This document shows, piece by piece, positions 49,502-62,589 of a stretch of 64,000 nucleotides of DNA; positions within the stretch are counted from its first letter, which is position 1, and every line of letters starts with the position of its first letter. Source of the DNA: Bradyrhizobium sp. 1(2017) (GTDB lineage: Bacteria; Pseudomonadota; Alphaproteobacteria; Rhizobiales; Xanthobacteraceae); the NCBI RefSeq assembly GCF_011602485.2, contig NZ_CP050022.2:5662001-5726000 (forward strand). The letters are read 5' to 3'. Position numbers and translations under genes: made by a program. The notes under the pieces are model-generated. The model worked only from the letters and a program-made list of their open reading frames with translations. It did not search any database and was not told the DNA's origin.

Positions 49502-50464
49502 TCACTTGCCCAGCACGACTTTGACACCGAGCCAGACCGCCCCCATCAGACCGGTCGCAATAACTGTGATCACCGCCTTGAAGGTGTAGCTCTGCGCCTG
49601 TTCCACACTCTTGCGCCAGCGCCTCAGGTGCTGGAAATCTGCCTTTAATTCACTCCCCACCCACTGCACGATCCAGATCGTGAAGGCATCCGCCGCCGCG
49701 CCCGCGCCGCCAATATCGATGAAGGCGCGGAGCGGCAGCAGCGGATCCGCCGCCACCTTTCCAATCCGCCCCTGAGCGCGCGCCTCCGACAGCAGCGAGG
49801 CGAAGTAGGCGCCCTCGAAGGCGCGGGCATAATCGCCTTCCCAGATATGGTCATACCGCTCCGGATAGAGCTTCCGATCCAGCAACCGTTCTTCCGCGAG
49901 CACCTCCGGAAACCATGGATTGTCGCGCCAATTGGCGTTCACCACCACTGCCCCGTCGGGGCGGCGCCCGCGCAAGAAATCGTCGATGGCGTCGCTCTTG
50001 CGGCGTGGATTCCAGCTCGCCCAGAGCTCGGAGTCCTTGGCGCGGATCGTCGGCCGCAGCAGCGCCAAGCTGCGTGCGCTGAGCGACTGCGCCTCGTCGA
50101 TCCAGGCGATGCGAAACCCCTCCAAGGATTTGATCGAGTCCGCCGTGTGATCCTGAAGTCCGCGGAAGATGATGAGCCCGTCCCCGGGCGTCTCGATCTT
50201 GTCGCTGAACAGCTTGAAGCCGTGACCGAGGCGAAGGCTCGCGATCTTGCCTTCGATCAGTCGCTTGGAGGACTGCGCCAGCGTGCGCTGCGCCTCGCGA
50301 ATGCAGACCGCGAGGGTGCCGCGCTCGGCCTGGCAGGTCTCGACCAGAAGTTCGCCGAAGAAGTGCGATTTTCCCGAGCCGCGTCCGCCATAGACCCCCT
50401 TGTAACGCGCAGGCTTGAGCAGCGGCTCGAAGATCTTGGCCGTCGGGATTTTCAGGATGGACAA
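49502..50464 (-). CDS. truncated phage terminase large subunit fused to a membrane segment
   Basis: 320 residues, shorter than usual terminases (about 420-500). The ATPase domain is complete: Walker A YGGRGSGKSHFFGELLVE near residue 27 and Walker B IAWIDEAQ. The nuclease domain starts (FIDIGGAGAAADAFTIWIVQWVG, about residues 248-270) and then breaks off. The last 48 residues are a coiled charged stretch and a transmembrane helix (FKAVITVIATGLMGAVWLGVKVVLG) that resemble a small phage membrane protein. An internal deletion between two phage genes would produce this. The product cannot be a working terminase. Part of a short prophage or gene-transfer remnant with the two genes upstream. Confidence 0.8.
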   Translation of the reverse strand: MSILKIPTAKIFEPLLKPARYKGVYGGRGSGKSHFFGELLVETCQAERGTLAVCIREAQRTLAQSSKRLIEGKIASLRLGHGFKLFSDKIETPGDGLIIFRGLQDHTADSIKSLEGFRIAWIDEAQSLSARSLALLRPTIRAKDSELWASWNPRRKSDAIDDFLRGRRPDGAVVVNANWRDNPWFPEVLAEERLLDRKLYPERYDHIWEGDYARAFEGAYFASLLSEARAQGRIGKVAADPLLPLRAFIDIGGAGAAADAFTIWIVQWVGSELKADFQHLRRWRKSVEQAQSYTFKAVITVIATGLMGAVWLGVKVVLGK

Positions 50465-50528
50465 TGGCTACGCTCGCTCGCCCCAGGGCAGGTCACGTGC
50501 GCCTGCGCCACATTGCGGACCGGAAACG

Positions 50529-50579
50529 AAAAACCCGCGGCCGATTGCTCGGCGCGGGCTGAACCAACTCGTTTTCCAT
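50529..50579 (-). ncRNA. small-RNA family copy A
   Basis: Minus-strand unit: -35 TTGACA (50615-50610), 18-base spacer, -10 CAGAAT (50591-50586), then about 51 nt ending in an intrinsic terminator (CCCGCG stem 50534-50539 with 50553-50558, T5 at 50533-50529). The 5' part reads CATCATGGAAAACGAG, close to the family consensus CATCATCGAAA. It lies between the small and large terminase genes, interrupting the remnant. The short ATG frame in this copy is not shared by the others, so it is taken as noncoding. Confidence 0.7.
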
Positions 50580-50655
50580 GATGCCATTCTGCCAGTGTTT
50601 TGCCCGACGTGTCAAGCGATCCATCGAAAATTCCGAATTTGAGATTTCCATCAGC

Positions 50656-51006
50656 TCAGGCCTCGGGCTCGGCGTCGGCATTGCCGGCGTCGTCCGGATG
50701 CACGATGACCCTCTCGACCCGGTGAACCAGTTCGAGCGGCTGATCCTCGCCATTCTCGACCGGCTGCGCGACCTTGCCCCAGCCGCGATCGAGAATGGCG
50801 TTGGCCGCCGAGACGCGGGCGGCTGGCGTCGCGTCGTCGCTGCGCATGATGCCGACGAGGACGCGGATGGCCGTCCTGGTGTGGCTGCGCGCCAGCGAGC
50901 GGATCTCGGTCAATGTCCGCGCCCGTGTCGTTGTCCTGGTCGCGAGCAGGCGCGCCGGCGCGCTCGCAAGCTCGCTCGCCTCCTCGCTCAAGAACAGGTC
51001 TCCCAC
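50656..51006 (-). CDS. phage terminase small subunit-like protein
   Basis: 116 residues from a GTG inside the end of the tiny membrane gene. A central helical block, RTAIRVLVGIMRSDDATPAARVSAANAILDRGWGK, is typical of DNA-binding small terminase or phage-associated proteins found before terminase large genes. The C-terminus is acidic. Together with the broken large subunit it supports a prophage origin. Confidence 0.65.
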   Translation of the reverse strand: MGDLFLSEEASELASAPARLLATRTTTRARTLTEIRSLARSHTRTAIRVLVGIMRSDDATPAARVSAANAILDRGWGKVAQPVENGEDQPLELVHRVERVIVHPDDAGNADAEPEA

Positions 51007-51059
51007 AGCACGATTGCAACGAGACCGGCGAGCGCGAGCGATATCAGATAAGCGGTCAT
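50988..51059 (-). CDS. 23-residue single-helix membrane peptide
   Basis: MTAYLISLALAGLVAIVLWETC is almost wholly one transmembrane helix. A perfect AAGGAGGAAACG ribosome site precedes the ATG at 51059. It overlaps the next gene by 19 bases, suggesting coupling. No recognised family. It could be a phage holin-like or regulatory leader peptide. Confidence 0.5.
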   Translation of the reverse strand: MTAYLISLALAGLVAIVLWETCS

Positions 51060-51318
51060 CGTTTCCTCCTTGGCGAAGAAAATGCGCGGCAGATCGCGGC
51101 CATCAGGCGCGATCGTTTCGGGCGCGAACCCTATCTCCGTGTCTCCGGAGACCGCAGCGGCGCGGCCAATGGCCTTAGCGCCGCGGGCCGGCACGTTCGC
51201 GCGTGCACGGCCAGCAATGGTTCGGACGGCGGCACGCCGATCGGCGCTCCCTCAACGCGTATCAAGCAAGTGCGTGGCCGCAATGCGTGGCCACCGTCCG
51301 ATTCCGCAATCGAGAACG

Positions 51319-51370
51319 AAAAAACCCGCGGCGGATGTTGTCCGCGCGGGTGAACCAGGCTCGTCTCGAT
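51319..51370 (-). ncRNA. small-RNA family copy E (weak promoter)
   Basis: Same layout: -35 TTGACG (51406-51401), 18-base spacer, but a poor -10 (CCTTTG, 51382-51377). The body has CATCATCGAGACGAG and a terminator with T6 (51324-51319). It may be a decaying copy. 65 bases separate its end from copy B. Confidence 0.55.
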
Positions 51371-51434
51371 GATGTCCAAAGGCCGGTGTGTTGCCCGGCG
51401 CGTCAAAGCCCACGTTCATGAGCATGTCGACATG

Positions 51435-51485
51435 AAAAAGCCCGCCGCAGACTTCTCCGCGCGGGCTAACCAAACGTCTTTCGAT
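51435..51485 (-). ncRNA. small-RNA family copy B (best promoter)
   Basis: -35 TTGACA (51521-51516), 18-base spacer, -10 CATAAT (51497-51492). The transcript starts near 51485 with CATCATCGAAAGACG and ends in AGCCCGC/GCGGGCT plus T5 (51439-51435), about 51 nt. This is the most promoter-like copy and the best test case for expression. Confidence 0.75.
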
Positions 51486-51569
51486 GATGGCATTATGCCA
51501 GTGTTTTGCCCGACGTGTCAAACGAACTTACGGCGCTTGCGAAAGTTAGCCGATCAGGAGGATCGGCCC

Positions 51570-51776
51570 ATGCCCGCCAAGACGATTTCTCGACAGACAT
51601 CGCGCAACCCGAGCGAAGCCGGCCCGCGCCACCAAAAGGAGCCGCGCAGCGACAAGCCACAGGACGCGATCATCGAAGACGCCGCGACCGGGGACGGGGA
51701 TCGCGATCTCGTGCATGGCGAGGGCGGCGCCATCGACCTTCCCGCCAAGCCCGGCGATTTGTCGAAAGACGATTAG
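51570..51776 (+). CDS. small hydrophilic protein, lineage-specific
   Basis: 68 residues from the ATG at 51570, behind AGGAGGAT. The sequence is rich in Lys, Asp, Glu and Pro and looks disordered (ending PAKPGDLSKDD). No domain is recognised. Possibly a stress or seed-maturation-like small protein; function unknown. It precedes the response regulator. Confidence 0.6.
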   Translation: MPAKTISRQTSRNPSEAGPRHQKEPRSDKPQDAIIEDAATGDGDRDLVHGEGGAIDLPAKPGDLSKDD

Positions 51777-51839
51777 GCTCGAGGGAACCACCCCGACGAG
51801 AGGCGCGTTTAATCCTTCGTTGCAGGGAAGCTTCGTGAG

Positions 51840-52184
51840 ATGCGCCACACCGTTCTGGTTGTTGACGACGATCCCGCCGTCCTCGACGTGGTCGTGGACA
51901 TGCTGGAGGAGCTCGGCTGCGAGGTGATCAGCGCGCAAGGCGGCGCGGATGCCCTCGACCGCCTCGAGCAGAACGAAGCGATCTCCATCCTCATCACCGA
52001 CATCAACATGCCCGGCATGGACGGGCATGAACTGGCGGAGCTCGCCAGGCGCGTCCGTCCGGAGCTGAAGGTGCTGCAATTGTCGGGTCGCGAGCCCCGG
52101 CGCGGCGGCCTGCCGATGATCCGCAAGCCGTTCTCGTTCGAGGAGCTCGCCGACATGATGCACCGAACCACCGGCATCTGCTGA
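51840..52184 (+). CDS. stand-alone response regulator receiver protein
   Basis: 114 residues, only a receiver domain. Phospho-acceptor D54 in ITDINMPGMDG, acidic pair D10-D11, and Lys96 in IRKPFSFEELADM. No output domain, so it acts like a CheY-type protein or in a phosphorelay. The frameshifted histidine kinase at 62.6-64 kb is not adjacent, so the partner kinase is unknown. Confidence 0.93.
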   Translation: MRHTVLVVDDDPAVLDVVVDMLEELGCEVISAQGGADALDRLEQNEAISILITDINMPGMDGHELAELARRVRPELKVLQLSGREPRRGGLPMIRKPFSFEELADMMHRTTGIC

Positions 52185-52196
52185 ACATCGGGCGCA

Positions 52197-52249
52197 AAAG
52201 AAAACCCGCAGCGGGTTGTTCCCGCGCGGGCGAACCGAACTCTTTCGAT
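52197..52249 (-). ncRNA. small-RNA family copy C
   Basis: -35 TTGACA (52285-52280), 18-base spacer, weak -10 CAAAGC (52261-52256). Body CAGCATCGAAAGAGTTCGG followed by a GCCCGCGCGGG...CCCGCTGCGGGT hairpin and TTTTCTTTT. It lies 12 bases past the response regulator stop and could double as that gene's terminator on the other strand only if read in reverse, which lacks a T-tract. Confidence 0.6.
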
Positions 52250-52412
52250 GCTGCTGCTTTGCCAGTGTCTTGCCCGACGTGTCAACGCGGCAAACGAGGA
52301 ACGGCAAGCCCTTCCTCCCAGCTTGATATGGTGTCTGCAAGGGGCTTGCTTCAAGTCCCCGTCCCTGCCGTAGAACCCGTGACCCGGCCAGCGACATCGA
52401 GGGGGTCACGAC

Positions 52413-53945
52413 ATGCCTGTATTGCTTCCAAGGTCCCGTTCCCGCGACGAGGCGCATCGCGCCGGCGCGCGCACCGCGGCGATGGCCGATCATGCCGTCA
52501 TCATCGCCGGCGGCGGCCCGACCGGGCTGATGCTGGCCGCCGAGCTCGCGCTTGCGGATGTCGACGTCGCGATCATCGAACGGCGCCCCGATCAAGCCAT
52601 CGTCGAGACGCGCGCCGGCGGCTTGCACGCCCGCACGCTCGAGATCCTCGATCAGCGCGGCGTCGCCGACCGCTTCCTGCGCGAGGGCCAGATCACCCAG
52701 CTCGCCGGCTTCGCCTGGACCAGGCTCGACATCAGCGACCTCCCCACAAGGCACCCTTATGGGCTCGCGCTGCGGCAGACCCACATCGAGCGCATCCTGG
52801 CCGATTGGGTCACCGAGCTCGCCGTGCCGATCTATCGCAACGCCGAGGTCACGGGCCTTGCCCAAGACGAGACCGGCGTCGAGATCACCCTGTCGGGCAA
52901 CAAGGTGCTGCGCGCAAACTATCTCGTCGGCTGCGACGGCGGTCGCAGCCTGGTGCGCAAGGCCGCCGGCATCGACTTCGCCGGTTTCGATCCGACGCTG
53001 AGCAATCTCATGGCCGAGGTCGAGATGCGCGAGGCGCCAAAATTCGGACTGCATCACGACGCGCTCGGCTTTCACGGCATCAGCAAGACCGAGAGTGGGC
53101 GCGTGCTGGTCGTCGTGACCGAAGCGACGCTCGATCGGACCGGCGAGCCCGGCCTGCGCGATCTCGGCGAGGCCCTCAATGCAGTCTACGGCACCGATTT
53201 CGGCCTGCAAAACCCCGCCTGGATCTCCCGCTTCACCGATGCGGCACGGCAGGCCACCTCCTATCGCAAGGGCCGCGTGCTGCTCGCCGGCGATGCCGCG
53301 CATATCCATCACTCCGTCGGCGGACAGGGCCTCAATCTGGGTGTGCAGGACGCGGTCAATCTCGGCTGGAAGCTGGCGCAGGTGGTGAGCGGCATCTCGC
53401 CCGACAGCCTGCTTCAAAGCTATCATGCCGAGCGCCATCCCGTCGCCGCGCGCGTGCTGAAGACCACCATGGCGCAGATCACCCTGCTCCGCCGCGGCGA
53501 TGACGGCCTCAAGGCCGCGCGCGAGGTCGTCGCCGACCTGCTCGGCATGGAGGCGCCGCGCCGGCGTTATGGCGCGATGATGAGCGGGCTCGACATCAGC
53601 TATGATCTCGGCGAAGGCCACGCACTGCTCGGCCGCCGCATGCCCGATCTCGATCTCCTGCTCGACGGACAGCCGCGACGGCTGTTCACGCTGCTGCACG
53701 GCGCGCGCGGCGTGCTGCTCAACTTCGGTCAGCGCGGCGGCGTCAAGGCGGCGCCCTGGGCCGATCGCATCGCCCTCGTCGACGCCGACTATGACGGCCC
53801 ATGGCAGCTTCCGGCCATCGGCGACGTCGCCGCGCCCGCTGCCGTGCTGGTGCGGCCCGACGGCCACGTGGCCTGGGTGGGAGACGGGAGCGAGCGCGGA
53901 TTGGACGAGGCGCTGACGAAGTGGCTCGGACCGGGTGCTGCGTAG
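52413..53945 (+). CDS. FAD-dependent monooxygenase (PheA/TfdB, rifampicin-monooxygenase type)
   Basis: 510 residues from the ATG at 52413 behind GAGGGGGTCACG; an internal ATG at 52482 just before VIIAGGG would remove a 23-residue basic leader. FAD motif IIAGGGPTGLMLAAEL, NAD(P)H/FAD DG motif GCDGGRSLVRKAAG and GD motif VLLAGDAAHIHHSVGGQGLNLGVQDA. The C-terminal thioredoxin-like domain is present to the end (PAAVLVRPDGHVAWVGD). It hydroxylates a phenolic or polyketide-like substrate. Single gene with no pathway neighbours. Confidence 0.9.
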   Translation: MPVLLPRSRSRDEAHRAGARTAAMADHAVIIAGGGPTGLMLAAELALADVDVAIIERRPDQAIVETRAGGLHARTLEILDQRGVADRFLREGQITQLAGFAWTRLDISDLPTRHPYGLALRQTHIERILADWVTELAVPIYRNAEVTGLAQDETGVEITLSGNKVLRANYLVGCDGGRSLVRKAAGIDFAGFDPTLSNLMAEVEMREAPKFGLHHDALGFHGISKTESGRVLVVVTEATLDRTGEPGLRDLGEALNAVYGTDFGLQNPAWISRFTDAARQATSYRKGRVLLAGDAAHIHHSVGGQGLNLGVQDAVNLGWKLAQVVSGISPDSLLQSYHAERHPVAARVLKTTMAQITLLRRGDDGLKAAREVVADLLGMEAPRRRYGAMMSGLDISYDLGEGHALLGRRMPDLDLLLDGQPRRLFTLLHGARGVLLNFGQRGGVKAAPWADRIALVDADYDGPWQLPAIGDVAAPAAVLVRPDGHVAWVGDGSERGLDEALTKWLGPGAA

Positions 53946-53972
53946 TGGACGAACGTGACAGCGGCTCCAACG

Positions 53973-54016
53973 AAAAAGCCCGCGGCTTCCCGCGGGCTTG
54001 ATCCGAACTTTTCGAT
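53973..54016 (-). ncRNA. small-RNA family copy D
   Basis: -35 TTGACA (54052-54047), 18-base spacer, -10 CATGAT (54028-54023), start near 54016 with CATCATCGAAAAGTTCGG. It ends in a perfect AGCCCGCGG-GAAG-CCGCGGGCT hairpin plus T5 (53977-53973), about 44 nt. The shortest and cleanest hairpin of the family. Confidence 0.7.
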
Positions 54017-54093
54017 GATGCCATCATGCCAGCGTTTTGCCCGACGTGTCAAACGAACGATCTCGATTACGTCGCCGGCGCAGCAACCGGCCT

Positions 54094-55710
54094 TCACTCC
54101 GGGCGAATGAGTGGTCGTATCCAGCGCGAGAACCATTCCTCGGCGTCTTTATGCGGATTGCCAGTGCTTTCCACTCCGAAGATCGGTGGCGGAATGAGGT
54201 AGCTCGGCTCATCCCCAAACGCGGCGATCGGTTTGCTCGCCGGCGTCGGCCGGCCGTCAGCGGTCGGCACGGTCCAACTTCCAAACCGCTCGTTGAATTC
54301 GGTGGAAGGCAAATACGGGACCGGCTCACTGCCTGATGTGAACACGCTTCCCGCGTTCGACGCGTTGACACGGGCGAGACGCCGGATGTCCTCGGGCGGG
54401 ACTGATCCCGCGCTAGGCATAGGCACAGCTTCGGGTAGGCCTTCGGCAGGCGCGATGTCATTTGGCGTGCTGGTCCAGTTGCCAAAGCGATCTGCAAAAG
54501 AGCTAGCGTGCGCCTCCGGATCGAGGGAGAGGACACCGCCGGGATGCAGCCCGAACCTGGATACCGAATGGGCGTTGCTGCTACCCCCTTTGTCCATGTT
54601 AAGCCCAGTGGGCAATGTGTTGAATGCAGTCGCTCTTGTCGAGAACACTCCGCCAGGAGTGGCGGCACCAATCTTCGAATCCAGACCGCTATCCTGCGCG
54701 CTGGCAGCGCGCGAAAGCGCCAAGATGCCTCCAAGGGTAAGCAGCCAGGCGGGAATGAAAGGAGTCGCTACGCCCGCTGCGGCGGCGCCGGCCAACCAAG
54801 GCAAAGCATTCTGCGTCACCGATGAGCCGCCGGCCAAAGGATTATCGTAGAACGGCAGCGGCGTTCCGGACGCCGGGTCGGAACGGAGGACCAAAGGATC
54901 TAGCGGGGCGGCTGCCGTCGGTGGCAGCTGATCGAACTGTTGCTCATCTCGATTGGGCGCGGGAAAGGCCGGCAGTTGGCCCGCTAAACGCGGATCACTC
55001 GGTGTAAAGCCTTCTCTTGCGTTTTGGTCGGAATGAGCGGGTGGAGAAAATCCTCGCAAGCGAGTGTCGATCAGGGAGGGAACAAGTCCCGGCAGGGCGG
55101 GGACAGGGTCGACAGCAGTGAATTGCAGCGAGATCGGGTAGCGTTGCAGGCGTTTTAGAATTTCGATCCTCTCGGCCATGCTGACACCACTCGTCGGAGA
55201 CAGAATTGGAAAAGCCAAGGCCGCATCTTGTCGACCGGCATTATCGAACTGATCGACTGTTTCCCGCATCCTCTGGATTTGTTCCGCATTGTCCGCGGCA
55301 TATTTCCCGGCGTTCGAAAACCATTTGTGGTTCTGACCGTTTGCCTCCTCAGTCGTCACTCCCTCCGGGGTATTGGGAAGCAGATGGCCGTTCGCTACCG
55401 CGTACTTGGCAGCGGCGACAAAGGCGTTCACGTCGGAAGCTATCTCGTCCAGCGCGCGTGCATCGCCCGCACTAGCAGCCACGAACTTTGGAGACACTTT
55501 GAGCTCTTCTAGATAGTCGCAAAATCCCTTATAGTAAGTTCCGAGATGTCCCCCCGTATGCGGGCTCGAACCGAGCTCCTTTGCCGGAAGCTGCTTAGAC
55601 GGCAACGTTACCAAATTTTGAACCGAATTATGATCGAACCGGCCTCTCAGGAGACGGACGACCTCATGGCCTGCAAATTTCTGCGGCAAAACGTGATGAT
55701 CTTGAAGCAT
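54094..55710 (-). CDS. AHH-type nuclease protein with long Pro-rich tail (possible toxin)
   Basis: 538 residues. Residues 1-80 form an AHH/HNH-superfamily nuclease module (DHHVLPQKF with H5-H6; NLVTLP; HTGGHLGTYY with H51 and H55). The rest is mainly disordered, with one hydrophobic stretch (WLAGAAAAGVATPFIPAWLLTLGG) and two FGxWT repeats (DRFGNWTSTP, ERFGSWTVPT). In polymorphic toxins the AHH domain is usually C-terminal after a delivery region; here it opens the protein, and a stop lies only 33 codons upstream, so a truncated toxin is possible. The DNA is visibly less GC-rich than the flanks. An immunity-like gene lies upstream on the same strand. Confidence 0.7.
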   Translation of the reverse strand: MLQDHHVLPQKFAGHEVVRLLRGRFDHNSVQNLVTLPSKQLPAKELGSSPHTGGHLGTYYKGFCDYLEELKVSPKFVAASAGDARALDEIASDVNAFVAAAKYAVANGHLLPNTPEGVTTEEANGQNHKWFSNAGKYAADNAEQIQRMRETVDQFDNAGRQDAALAFPILSPTSGVSMAERIEILKRLQRYPISLQFTAVDPVPALPGLVPSLIDTRLRGFSPPAHSDQNAREGFTPSDPRLAGQLPAFPAPNRDEQQFDQLPPTAAAPLDPLVLRSDPASGTPLPFYDNPLAGGSSVTQNALPWLAGAAAAGVATPFIPAWLLTLGGILALSRAASAQDSGLDSKIGAATPGGVFSTRATAFNTLPTGLNMDKGGSSNAHSVSRFGLHPGGVLSLDPEAHASSFADRFGNWTSTPNDIAPAEGLPEAVPMPSAGSVPPEDIRRLARVNASNAGSVFTSGSEPVPYLPSTEFNERFGSWTVPTADGRPTPASKPIAAFGDEPSYLIPPPIFGVESTGNPHKDAEEWFSRWIRPLIRPE

Positions 55711-55997
55711 GCGACTGCTGCTTTCTGGCGCAAGCCGGCATCCGAGCTGCTGGTGATCGCAGCCGGCGGGTCTGATCTGAAATGCTTAGTGGATGGCCAG
55801 CAGCGAAGTCGGCTTCTTGCGTGCTCGCCAATGACGACGGCAGCGCTTCGCATTACTGCAAACAAAGCAGGGCATCCGCGCCTTGCTGGCCTCGTGCAAA
55901 TGTCTCAGCAAACGAGCGATTTGGAGACGAGCCCACGGCGGGGCAAGTCAGATGTTACACCAGTCTGCTCGCGAAGAATCCACGGACGAAGGCTCCT
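55711..55997. other. gap between the nuclease and immunity-like genes
   Basis: 287 bases with no convincing gene, promoter or repeat seen. Short frames on both strands look random. It may hold the lost N-terminal part of the nuclease gene. Confidence 0.4.
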
Positions 55998-56615
55998 CTA
56001 ATAGCCGAATTGAGTTGTGAAGCTCATGCCTCTGAGGCCAGCAGCTTTACAGGCGTCCTTCATTCCCTGGTCACAAATAATCCACTGCTCCAAAAAGCGT
56101 GGCCGGAAAATATGAGCTGAGCCGATGGCGTCCTCTCGGAACACAAAGTTTGAGGGCGCCATGCTATCGTACCGCCTGAAATCTGTCCCATCATCCAGGA
56201 CCGTGACGGTCGACTCGACCTCGTCGATGACCTCGACTCGGCGTACGAAATCGCAAAGCCAATAAACGGGCGCACCTCCCTTGAGCGACCGCGTTTCGCA
56301 CCTCAAGAACGCCACACCCTCTTGATCCACGGTCTCGAGAACGTTTTTCATCCGATCGGATATGAGCCAGAAGTCGTGAAATTTCTCCCAATCGACCGGC
56401 GGCCGCCCGAGAGATTTGTCGATCAGCAGCCGTGGCGTTTCGGGCAGCGGAGGGAAGCCTCTCTTGCGTCGCGGCGCCAGGAGCACGTTGCCGACGCCCA
56501 AGGCGGCAAGATTCTCCAATTCCACTCCGGCAGCCGTGTGAAACCTGAAATCCGACGTGACAAGATAGAGCTTTGGCGCCCTTCGCTTTCGGCCTCCAAC
56601 GTGGGGCGTAGCCAT
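55998..56615 (-). CDS. Imm11/DUF1629-like protein (possible immunity protein)
   Basis: 205 residues. The block FWLISDRMKNVLETVDQEGVAFLRCETR and the ending LEQWIICDQGMKDACKAAGLRGMSF recall the DUF1629 (Imm11) group, which often serves as immunity to polymorphic toxin nucleases. It is encoded upstream of the AHH nuclease on the same strand; toxin-first order is more common. Assignment rests on motif memory and not on a search. Confidence 0.6.
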   Translation of the reverse strand: MATPHVGGRKRRAPKLYLVTSDFRFHTAAGVELENLAALGVGNVLLAPRRKRGFPPLPETPRLLIDKSLGRPPVDWEKFHDFWLISDRMKNVLETVDQEGVAFLRCETRSLKGGAPVYWLCDFVRRVEVIDEVESTVTVLDDGTDFRRYDSMAPSNFVFREDAIGSAHIFRPRFLEQWIICDQGMKDACKAAGLRGMSFTTQFGY

Positions 56616-56788
56616 AGATCATCGCTCCTTTCGTATGACTCATTGTTCTCAGAACTTTGGACGTCCGTACTTCGCAACAGAATTGCCTCTTCGCTACTCA
56701 AGAGTGAGTTTTGGTTGAACGCCGCAGGCACCCGACGTGCCAAACGATCGGCTTGGGTCACGGAGGCAAATGCAAAGACTCAAACAAT

Positions 56789-57619
56789 TCATTGGAGAGA
56801 GTCTGCGAAGTCATCAGTACAAGAAAACACCGGCAGTCCGCCAAGAATCTCGGAATTCCTGTACCGAACCGCGATACGCTCGGTCGCACTTGCGCCGATC
56901 GTGTCGCCGTCCTTCACCACGTTGCCGTGCTCGATCAGATAGACGGAAAGTCCGGCCACCTTGTCGATCAGTGCCGGCAGCGTCAGCTTGGCGGTCTCGA
57001 ACTCGATCTCGCGCCCAACGAAGGTGGACAACCCGACCGTGATCGCGCCGATCTTCCCGTCCGACTGGAAGGGAAGAATGTCGAGCCAGAGCGTGAAGGG
57101 ATAGTCGGGAAATGGTGCAAAGGAATGCCTCGACATCTCCAGCCAAAGACCGGACGGACGCGCCACCCGGCCGGCCCACACCACGCCGCAACATTCCGGC
57201 ATGGCGGCGATCAACGTGCCGATCACCGCAGTGGTGACGCGCGCAGCGACGAGCGGCCGCGCGTTCTTTCCCAGCGTCGAGACGATCAGATGACCGCGAT
57301 GCCGGGCAGCCACAGCCTTGCTCTCCGGCCAGGTCGTGGCGGCGCGCCCCCACAGGCTGCTATCCTCCGGAATGGGAGCCGGCATCGACATGACGGCAAC
57401 GAGTTCGTTGCCGCAGCGAATGAGCGGTGAGCCTGCCTGGACCTGTTGCTCGCCAGGACCGTCCGGCCCCGTCGTCAAATCCGGATGTCGCGCACGAAGG
57501 ATTTTGGCGACAGCGGACATGTCGGGCGTGACCGGCCTGTCCAGCAAGACAAAAGCGAGAAATGAGTTACCCATTAACTGCCCCACCGAACGCTTGGCCG
57601 AGATACTCGTCTCGCCCAA
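56789..57619 (-). CDS. DUF4261-domain protein
   Basis: 276 residues. FLAFVLLDRPVTPDMSAVAKILRARHPDL at the N-terminus, AMPECCGVVWAGRVARPSGLWLEMSRHSF in the centre and EILPFQ-like ILPFQSDGKIGAITVGLSTFVGREIEF match the DUF4261 family, whose function is unknown. DUF4261 proteins occur near polymorphic toxin loci, which fits the nuclease and immunity-like genes downstream. Confidence 0.7.
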   Translation of the reverse strand: MGETSISAKRSVGQLMGNSFLAFVLLDRPVTPDMSAVAKILRARHPDLTTGPDGPGEQQVQAGSPLIRCGNELVAVMSMPAPIPEDSSLWGRAATTWPESKAVAARHRGHLIVSTLGKNARPLVAARVTTAVIGTLIAAMPECCGVVWAGRVARPSGLWLEMSRHSFAPFPDYPFTLWLDILPFQSDGKIGAITVGLSTFVGREIEFETAKLTLPALIDKVAGLSVYLIEHGNVVKDGDTIGASATERIAVRYRNSEILGGLPVFSCTDDFADSLQ

Positions 57620-60063: not shown

Positions 60064-60228
60064 GATTGTCTCTCCTTTTCGCTTCGTTGGTCGAGGCCCG
60101 CGGCCGGGGAGTTCGAGACAATCGGGTTTCAGCATTGTTTCAGTCGTGTTTCGTGGGTGGAGCGGCCTCGCCTCCGCTTCGAAGCGCGGCATGATCGGCC
60201 GCCGGCCGCCGGGCTCCGATGCAAAAGC

Positions 60229-60260
60229 AAAGCCCGCGCCGGATTGCTCCGCGCGGGCCA
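60229..60260 (-). terminator. intrinsic terminator of the 75-residue secreted protein gene
   Basis: Stem GCCCGCGC (60232-60239) with GCGCGGGC (60251-60258), minus-strand tail TTTGCTTTTGC. It lies 31 bases past the stop. The hairpin resembles the terminator part of the small-RNA family, but the promoter half is absent. Confidence 0.7.
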
Positions 60261-62413: not shown

Positions 62414-62439
62414 ACCGGCGGACCTTCGAATGGAGAACC

Positions 62440-62478
62440 CATGCGGGTCGCGGCCTCGTGCGCGACCCAAGCTGGGAT
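62440..62478 (-). ncRNA. variant of the small-RNA promoter element (copy G)
   Basis: -35 TTGACC (62514-62509) with spacer CGTCGGGCAAAACACCTG (18) and -10 TATAGG (62490-62485) match the family. The body has ATCATCC and a GGGTCGCG/CGCGACCC hairpin (62445-62452 and 62461-62468) without a clear T-tract. The expressed form, if any, is uncertain. It lies past the end of the histidine kinase gene. Confidence 0.45.
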
Positions 62479-62589
62479 GATCTACCTATACAGGTGTTTT
62501 GCCCGACGGGTCAAGCGCATTTTTGGCAATCCGAAATACAATTCGGATTTTACGTGGCTGCCGGCGAAACCTCCGGCCCCCGAAGAGCC

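Follow-up and report, generated by a model that had tools for sequence, protein, structure and literature searches.

In this work, a stretch of 64,000 nucleotides from Bradyrhizobium sp. 1(2017), corresponding to positions 5,662,001-5,726,000 of a genome made up of a single 7.86-Mb contig (G000) and hereafter called the window, was analyzed for a short intergenic unit (promoter, lead and terminator-like hairpin) that occurs five times on the minus strand next to the remnant of a prophage. On the whole, we lean towards the idea that these units belong to a new family of multi-copy small-RNA cassettes, whose promoter is of a class used by both phage and host. As far as sequence comparison can establish them, the boundaries of the unit, the covariation of its hairpin, the rule that it follows in its strand, its two homes and the presence of its promoter half at about 30 other chromosomal sites are firm. 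The original prediction had recognized the five copies, but it did not see the spread of the family through the genus, its phage home, or the promoter half that it has in common with host sites.

The five copies, which span positions 50523-54052 and lie within a few bases of the coordinates first given for them, share one layout, that is, TTGAC(A/G), an 18-bp spacer, a -10 region, a lead of about 25 nt and a GC-rich hairpin followed by a T-tract; judged by this layout, each of them appears to be a self-contained unit, as had been proposed. The best copy, unit B (51430..51521, minus strand), combines TTGACA, the spacer CGTCGGGCAAAACACTGG and the -10 box CATAAT, scores 103.5 bits with the covariance model R1 (see below), and has a predicted start near 51485 and a predicted RNA of ~50 nt. 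Unit A (50523..50615, minus; 98.8 bits), located between the open reading frame (ORF) of the terminase large subunit and a small ORF upstream of the terminase, has TTGACA, the 18-bp spacer, CAGAAT, the lead, the GC-rich hairpin and the T-tract. Unit C (52194..52285, minus; 90.6 bits), which sits in the gap separating two plus-strand genes, has a good -35 and spacer and a poor -10 (CAAAGC), while unit E (51314..51406, minus; 85.7 bits) carries a decayed promoter (TTGACG, spacer CGCCGGGCAACACACCGG, -10 CCTTTG). Lastly, unit D (53968..54052, minus; 75.6 bits) has the -10 box CATGAT and the hairpin AAGCCCGCGGGAAGCCGCGGGCTT, which is of a different and shorter type than that of A, B, C and E. Thus, the common spacer first described is found as such in A, B, C and D, whereas E differs from it at 2 of the 18 positions; likewise, -10 boxes of the form CANNAT are present in A, B and D, but no good -10 exists in C and E. 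For every unit, the fold is better than the average for its dinucleotide shuffles (z from -1.9 to -4.3: A -1.94, E -2.33, B -2.69, C -2.46 and D -4.29).

The promoter pattern, allowing up to three mismatches, has 40 matches in the whole genome, and the reversed pattern used as a control has none. Model R1, built from 20 units, assigned 75.6-103.5 bits to the five copies and to a sixth one at 2,810,234-2,810,320, the next match reaching 48.1 bits (five of these six top matches belong to the sequences of the model; unit D does not). The idea that the stems keep pairing in spite of their different sequences was borne out: in an alignment of 20 of the 28 units available at that stage (wD, 31a, 31b, 34b and 34c, with the D-type hairpin, and 33a, 33b and 32e, with poor hairpins, were left out), 94.5% of 238 cells are paired, versus 27-48% when slid by 1-3 columns. 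Compensatory changes are also present, since 5 of the 12 pairs change on both sides (shuffle mean 2.3), a number of at least five being reached in 3 of 500 shuffles, and the covariation score lies above those of all 500; 6 of the 12 pairs are invariant and hence uninformative on covariation. The suggestion that the spacer is conserved beyond the needs of a promoter is supported, its positions 7-17 being 91-100% conserved in a profile of 103 distinct units, obtained from the 109 best of 140 rows and gathered with searches that included the window itself.

The family is multi-copy, as had been proposed. The search with a custom covariance model over Bradyrhizobium genomes gave at least one match at E ≤ 1e-10 in 94 of the 98 genomes sampled and at E ≤ 0.01 in all 98 (5 of these genomes had supplied sequences to R1, and at most 43 candidates per genome were scored, under stricter filters). 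Outside the genus the signal is thinner: in a sample of 80 genomes of the family, 3 of which are Bradyrhizobium, 7 of the 77 others match at E ≤ 0.01, with a best value of 8.6e-8 (G139). In strain USDA 110 (as which genome G191 was taken), strong matches are found at 6,718,941-6,722,278 (five) and at 3,416,229-3,416,317 (one), which places the units in a model strain with existing start-site and small-RNA data.

The "prophage remnant" of the original prediction was substantiated by the ORF at 49502..50464 (minus strand, 320 aa), which encodes the large subunit of a terminase (PF04466, E 3.7e-23; the T4-type N-terminal model PF03237 gives a weaker second match, E 4.1e-05). The final part of this ORF is, in the alignment, unlike that of its 428-aa relatives, which would fit a decaying gene. 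Upstream of it, the small ORF 50656..51006 (minus), without a Pfam match, is a small-subunit candidate by position only; locally 57-87% identical ORFs exist in four relatives. Throughout the loci compared in this work, genes are ORFs obtained with a composition rule, without annotation. When R1 was run on 80 terminase loci of the genome collection, 137 matches were retrieved in 34 loci; these chromosomal units share the strand of the terminase without exception (137 of 137), and 131 begin upstream of it. Two loci among these, with the titles Rhodovulum PH10 and Rhodoplanes serenus, have weak and tentative matches upstream of the terminase (28.2 and 25.6 bits, respectively).

A similar picture emerged from viral sequences. 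A scan of IMG/VR with TTGACNCGTCGGGCAAAWCA yielded 96 stretches, 80 of which were examined; they come from 76 contigs, some nearly identical and hence not independent. At least one R1 match is present in 77 of these 80 stretches, for a total of 112 matches. All 50 units of the 25 stretches that also encode a terminase share its strand (33 upstream and 17 downstream of it), and in all the 22 stretches with more than one unit the units share a single strand. Their neighbours include a PF04466-type terminase, a portal protein (phrog_1216) and a major head protein (phrog_1328); in contig L276, for instance, there are units upstream of the small ORF preceding the terminase, in the gap from terminase to portal, and ahead of the gene for the major head protein. 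Since the units lie among the terminase, portal and head genes of viral contigs, one home of the cassette is, by its gene neighbourhood, the intergenic gaps of a temperate-phage lineage, of which a decayed stub remains in the window.

In 35 relatives and in the window, the units are interleaved with variable genes upstream of the terminase; these encode an AHH nuclease, Imm11, DUF4261, a flavin hydroxylase and a response regulator, together with many ORFs occurring at one or two loci. When the transcribed parts are compared, only 11.5 of the 110 units with siblings have their nearest neighbour in their own locus (3.2 expected by chance; the test took 113 of the 137 units, the 24 weaker ones being left out). 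Because the nearest neighbour is so rarely a sibling, most positional subtypes are, on sequence similarity, common to several species, with some local duplication. Tandem arrays also exist, as in L264, where three copies follow each other in 157-bp steps. In a further genome (G053:C1:6063017-6063533), four promoter copies stand in tandem on one strand, in steps of ~166 bp. At the start of 17 E-type units, conservation rises from 0.26 in the 20 bases ahead of the unit to 0.95 in its first 20 bases.

The second home is a solitary one. In 8 of the 12 non-cluster loci compared, from 8 genomes, a full unit is located downstream of a common gene pair (the ORF rule called one gene of the pair in 2 of these 8 loci), which we take to be DUF1214/DUF1254-like. 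Here, the alignment of the unit extends from TTTGAC to the T-tract and has small gaps in the linker only, the flanks on both sides are unalignable, and the gene that follows is different in each of the 8 loci. This solitary island is, as far as alignments tell, the best evidence for selection on the unit itself. Immediately downstream of the solitary unit of the genome under study, at ~2.81 Mb, there is an Rfam chrB-b RNA (RF03086, 51.8 bits; L005 1267-1311).

The alternation of units with variable modules upstream of the terminase, their constant strand in all the sets examined, and the tandem copies with steps of ~166 bp (G053) and 157 bp (L264) might also be explained by a shuffling at the level of DNA, in which the units, as homologous stretches comparable to the promoter-stem loop (PeSL) cassettes of phages, would permit the swapping of cargo modules and supply start and stop signals, the RNA itself being functionless. 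We regard this as unlikely: most positional subtypes are common between species, the solitary copy is conserved in the absence of a module to swap, and host sites retain the promoter half but lack the hairpin.

These host sites deserve a closer description. The genome has 42 listed sites, that is, the 40 pattern matches and 2 additional R1 matches; at 32 of them (32 of the 37 outside the five units) a 22-mer, AAAACAACCCCATGCACAGTAG, is present 61-168 bp upstream on the same strand, and the ten sites devoid of it are the five units, the promoter half at 62494 and four others. The 22-mer has 62 copies in the genome (at most 2 mismatches; reversed control 0), for example at 2,810,468 and 904,214, and none of these 62 sites falls within the span of the window. 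The promoter half TTGACNCGTCGGGCAAAACA follows 32 of the 62, often at ~67 or 87 bp, and the other 30 have no listed half. There are preferred distances between 22-mer and promoter; given a lenient null and the non-independence of orthologous pairs, we do not speak of a periodicity of ~10 bp. The -10 box lay outside the search pattern; across 63 composite copies taken from two genomes it reads [C/T]A...T, with A at position 2 in 62 copies and T at position 6 in 59. The 22-mer is preceded by a same-strand gene in 45 of 61 cases, with the stop codon within 100 nt in 38 of these 45, and at 14 of 31 sites of this genome the upstream neighbour is at least 80% identical to that of one of 33 loci of genome G002. 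In the dispersed halves of G000 and G002, positions 26-38 from the start of TTGAC, which cover the -10/start region, form an operator-like dyad, A..ATG-N-CAT..T, with conservation mirrored between its arms; its symmetry is 0.71 at centre 32, versus 0.01-0.58 at 41 other centres.

The distribution of the 22-mer along the chromosome is not uniform in its orientation. Between 0.2 and 3.0 Mb, 24 of 27 copies are on the minus strand, and from 6.8 to 0.13 Mb all 11 are on the plus strand (ranges picked after viewing the data), the remaining 24 being mixed (10 plus and 14 minus); the GC skew, sampled over stretches in megabase bins, changes from positive to negative at 5 Mb. Gaps shorter than 40 kb number 4, against 16.6 expected (0 of 5000 draws), and the coefficient of variation of the spacing, 0.82 versus 0.98 at random, is not clearly below expectation, since 7.6% of draws were as low. 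A 20-base core of the 22-mer is present exactly in 212 of 265 genomes of the genus, 118 of which carry at least 44 copies (counted by eye). Variants exist: most copies read AAAACAACCCCATGCAAAG(G/C)AG in G010 and G044 (about 30 of 54 and 41 of 60, respectively, counted by eye), and AAAACAACCCCATGCAAAGTAG in G017, among the copies listed.

Units and dispersed halves also obey the same rule at base 18 of the spacer. Among 60 genomes searched with exact patterns, 22 carry A alone at this base, 30 carry T alone, 3 have both and 5 have neither, and the minority base accounts for 3 of 859 exact copies (copies exist in 55 of the 60 genomes). The resulting groups are defined by the spacer base and not by a tree; among matched records, the A group includes B. 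betae and B. campsiandrae, and the T group B. elkanii WSM2783 and a strain of B. lablabi. Since units and dispersed halves follow one rule, a reader shared by both and differing between genome groups is the simplest reading that the spacer base suggests; alternatively, a concerted exchange among copies might account for the rule. In ten dispersed copies of the T group from G044 (L361-L370), the -10 is, by eye, mostly T-rich and TA...T-like.

Starting from these data, a wider scenario can be put forward tentatively, and we would not wager on it at present: the genus might possess a host system of ~60 elements composed of 22-mer and promoter, many of them at conserved places, read by trans-acting host factors, polar with respect to the strand, seldom closer than 40 kb and varying in each half between groups in almost all copies together, whose promoter was adopted by the phage cassettes, so that the window would represent the phage branch. 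Such a chromosome-wide system is undescribed in the literature searched.

A different role for the spacer would be that of a gate. In phage lambda, Q acts at pR'-tR' as an antiterminator. By analogy, the units might be late promoters whose transcript stops at the terminator unless an antiterminator of phage or host origin, loaded at the spacer, allows the polymerase to proceed into the genes beyond, the hexamer CATCAT representing a pause signal. This second -10-like hexamer begins 8 bp past the first -10, and its key A and T occur at frequencies of 0.99 and 1.00 in the units and of 0.92 and 0.95 in the dispersed halves; moreover, the spacer is conserved, and the units are on the terminase strand ahead of terminase, portal and head genes. 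Yet the spacer is also kept at host sites without a consistent downstream gene (same strand in 32 and opposite in 27 of 59 called), the genes that units C and D face are on the plus strand, and what follows the solitary copy varies by locus, which makes the gate, in our opinion, quite improbable. The orientation of C and D, together with the eight different genes found after the solitary unit, also led us to reject the possibility that the unit is a cis-acting leader of the next gene. A further candidate, a conserved peptide in the TTG frame, was weakly rejected, since third positions vary slightly more than the others (0.071, 0.067 and 0.103 for codon positions one to three).

We can therefore return to the small-RNA cassettes, for which the following mechanism is proposed. 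Each unit would consist of a particular promoter class, a transcript of ~50 nt and an intrinsic terminator; the host RNA polymerase would transcribe it from a start located ~7 nt past the -10 to an end at the hairpin and U-tract, the hairpin serving as both terminator and stabiliser. One host factor, differing between genome groups, might read the spacer at phage and host copies alike, and the short RNA might act in trans through its 5' single-stranded linker, which differs between positional subtypes. In the window, the phage has shrunk to its terminase stub, with the cassettes persisting between cargo genes. If the proposed mechanism is true, one and the same transcription signal of the genus serves a phage lineage and its host, and the family might help to understand how short RNAs multiply and outlast the decay of a prophage.

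Several observations weigh against this interpretation. Transcription of the units is a prediction, and their action in trans is deduced from the layout and from the solitary copy; moreover, the main text of PMC4842269, which deals with start sites of USDA 110, contains none of the unit strings tried. The linker is the least conserved portion of the unit in the 103 distinct units, and units E and C have poor -10 boxes. In the 17 E-type units, conservation is still 0.69-0.80 in most 20-base blocks downstream; as the sequence past these units is also conserved, the island is one-sided in the cluster. A single reader for 22-mer and spacer is made less likely by the fact that the two are not split in the same way among genomes, G020 and G047 having a T spacer with 36 and 58 exact 22-mers and G043 and G027 an A spacer with 8 and 12. 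The T of the -10 box is found in 1 of 14 distinct T-spacer units (10 of which read CATAAC), versus 85 of 89 A-spacer ones. Concerning the distribution, the best match is weaker than E 1e-10 in 4 of the 98 genomes (G001, G030, G049 and G097), R1 has no match in 46 of the 80 terminase loci, including three titled Bradyrhizobium (L110, L111 and L121), and BLAST of unit B gave no match either against INPHARED phages or against PLSDB plasmids.

The least credible alternative, that of a palindromic intergenic repeat (REP- or MITE-like) that is no transcription unit and resembles a promoter and a terminator as a by-product, would account for the multi-copy, intergenic GC-rich palindrome and for a genus known to carry REP elements (accessible part of PMC5082802), but it is very hard to reconcile with a most conserved half that has promoter spacing and lies outside the palindrome, with a T-tract on a single side, with one strand in all the sets examined, and with the absence of Br-REP1 and Br-REP2 from 50401-54200 within 5 and 10 mismatches.

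In addition to the five units, the window harbors two partial copies on the minus strand. At 62436..62514, a promoter half (TTGACCCGTCGGGCAAAACACCTGTATAGG; 35.3 bits with R1) exists without T-tract terminator and without the upstream 22-mer, and at 60223..60259 there is a terminator-like hairpin half (GGCCCGCGCGGAGCAATCCGGCGCGGGCTTTGCTTTT; 26 bits, model positions 55-91); the latter is an orphan, without promoter half and on the same strand as the units. As for the genes among which the units are set, a response-regulator receiver protein (51840..52184, plus strand; PF00072, E 2.1e-18) lies between units B and C, and a FAD-dependent aromatic-ring hydroxylase (52413..53945, plus; PF01494, E 2.5e-82, and PF21274) between C and D. 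Upstream of unit D, a protein with an AHH-nuclease domain (54094..55710, minus; PF14412, E 4.5e-06) belongs to the same module as an Imm11-family immunity protein (55998..56615, minus; PF07791, E 3.3e-44). The AHH nuclease, Imm11 and DUF4261 genes are consecutive over 54094-57619 in a toxin/immunity-like arrangement, and their ORF families recur at the locus of the relatives.

Both promoter-terminator cassettes in T4-type phages and multi-copy small RNAs in rhizobia are already known, and a comparison with them is required. The suhB/mmgR family (RF00519), to which the original prediction had tentatively referred the units, resembles them in being a short, multi-copy, alphaproteobacterial RNA. 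Nevertheless, the covariance search found no match to it in the window at the gathering threshold, nor at E ≤ 10 in 50400-54200, and the same model finds other sites of this genome (1,347,961, 2,384,180 and, below the cut-off, 1,147,905), which serve as a positive control, and none of the units; this membership was hence rejected. More generally, no Rfam family matches the window at the gathering threshold, and none matches in 50400-54200. Going by the accessible part of PMC5082802, the BjsR1-10 RNAs are Bradyrhizobium small RNAs, some of them in 2-4 imperfect copies, and Br-REP1 and Br-REP2 are repeated intergenic stem-loop elements of the same genus. The former were rejected because 0 of the 6 strong units of USDA 110 fall at published BjsR coordinates, the nearest 5' ends being those of BjsR5a (6,326,856, ~390 kb off) and BjsR3 (3,384,003, ~32 kb off); the latter are different sequences. 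The alpha-r14/NfeR1 (cuckoo) RNAs of Rhizobiaceae share with the units the multi-copy state, a conserved sigma-70-type promoter motif and variable stems, and they are described, in the text available of PMC7143759, as having three hairpins with anti-Shine-Dalgarno loops; the units have one terminator hairpin, and none of 103 distinct units has CCTCC in its transcribed part.

The promoter string and the 22-mer string gave no match in a literature search that left most subscription papers and the hairpin string outside it, and the unit is undescribed in the literature found by topic (Bradyrhizobium repeats and terminase-linked RNAs). Judging from the sequences compared, outside which the BjrC RNAs (Madhugiri 2012) lie, the family appears to be new in that it unites the traits of promoter-terminator cassettes with those of multi-copy small RNAs, under a promoter class common to phage and host.

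The closest parallel is found in phages. The PeSL promoter-stem loop cassettes of T4-type phages were reportedly the subject of work by Arbiol in 2010 and Comeau in 2014. According to the accessible parts of PMC4503421 and PMC3950731, they consist of a promoter and a stem-loop in intergenic gaps, and the units share with them the order of promoter and stem-loop terminator, the position in phage intergenic gaps and the variable genes between copies. However, they differ from PeSL cassettes in their soil alphaproteobacterial host and in their terminase, portal and head neighbours, which, apart from the weaker PF03237 match of the window terminase, show no sign of a T4-type phage among those scanned (individual T4-type phages lay outside this comparison). 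They differ also in their fixed promoter spacer, in the presence of the same promoter on the host chromosome, and in the existence of a solitary conserved unit.

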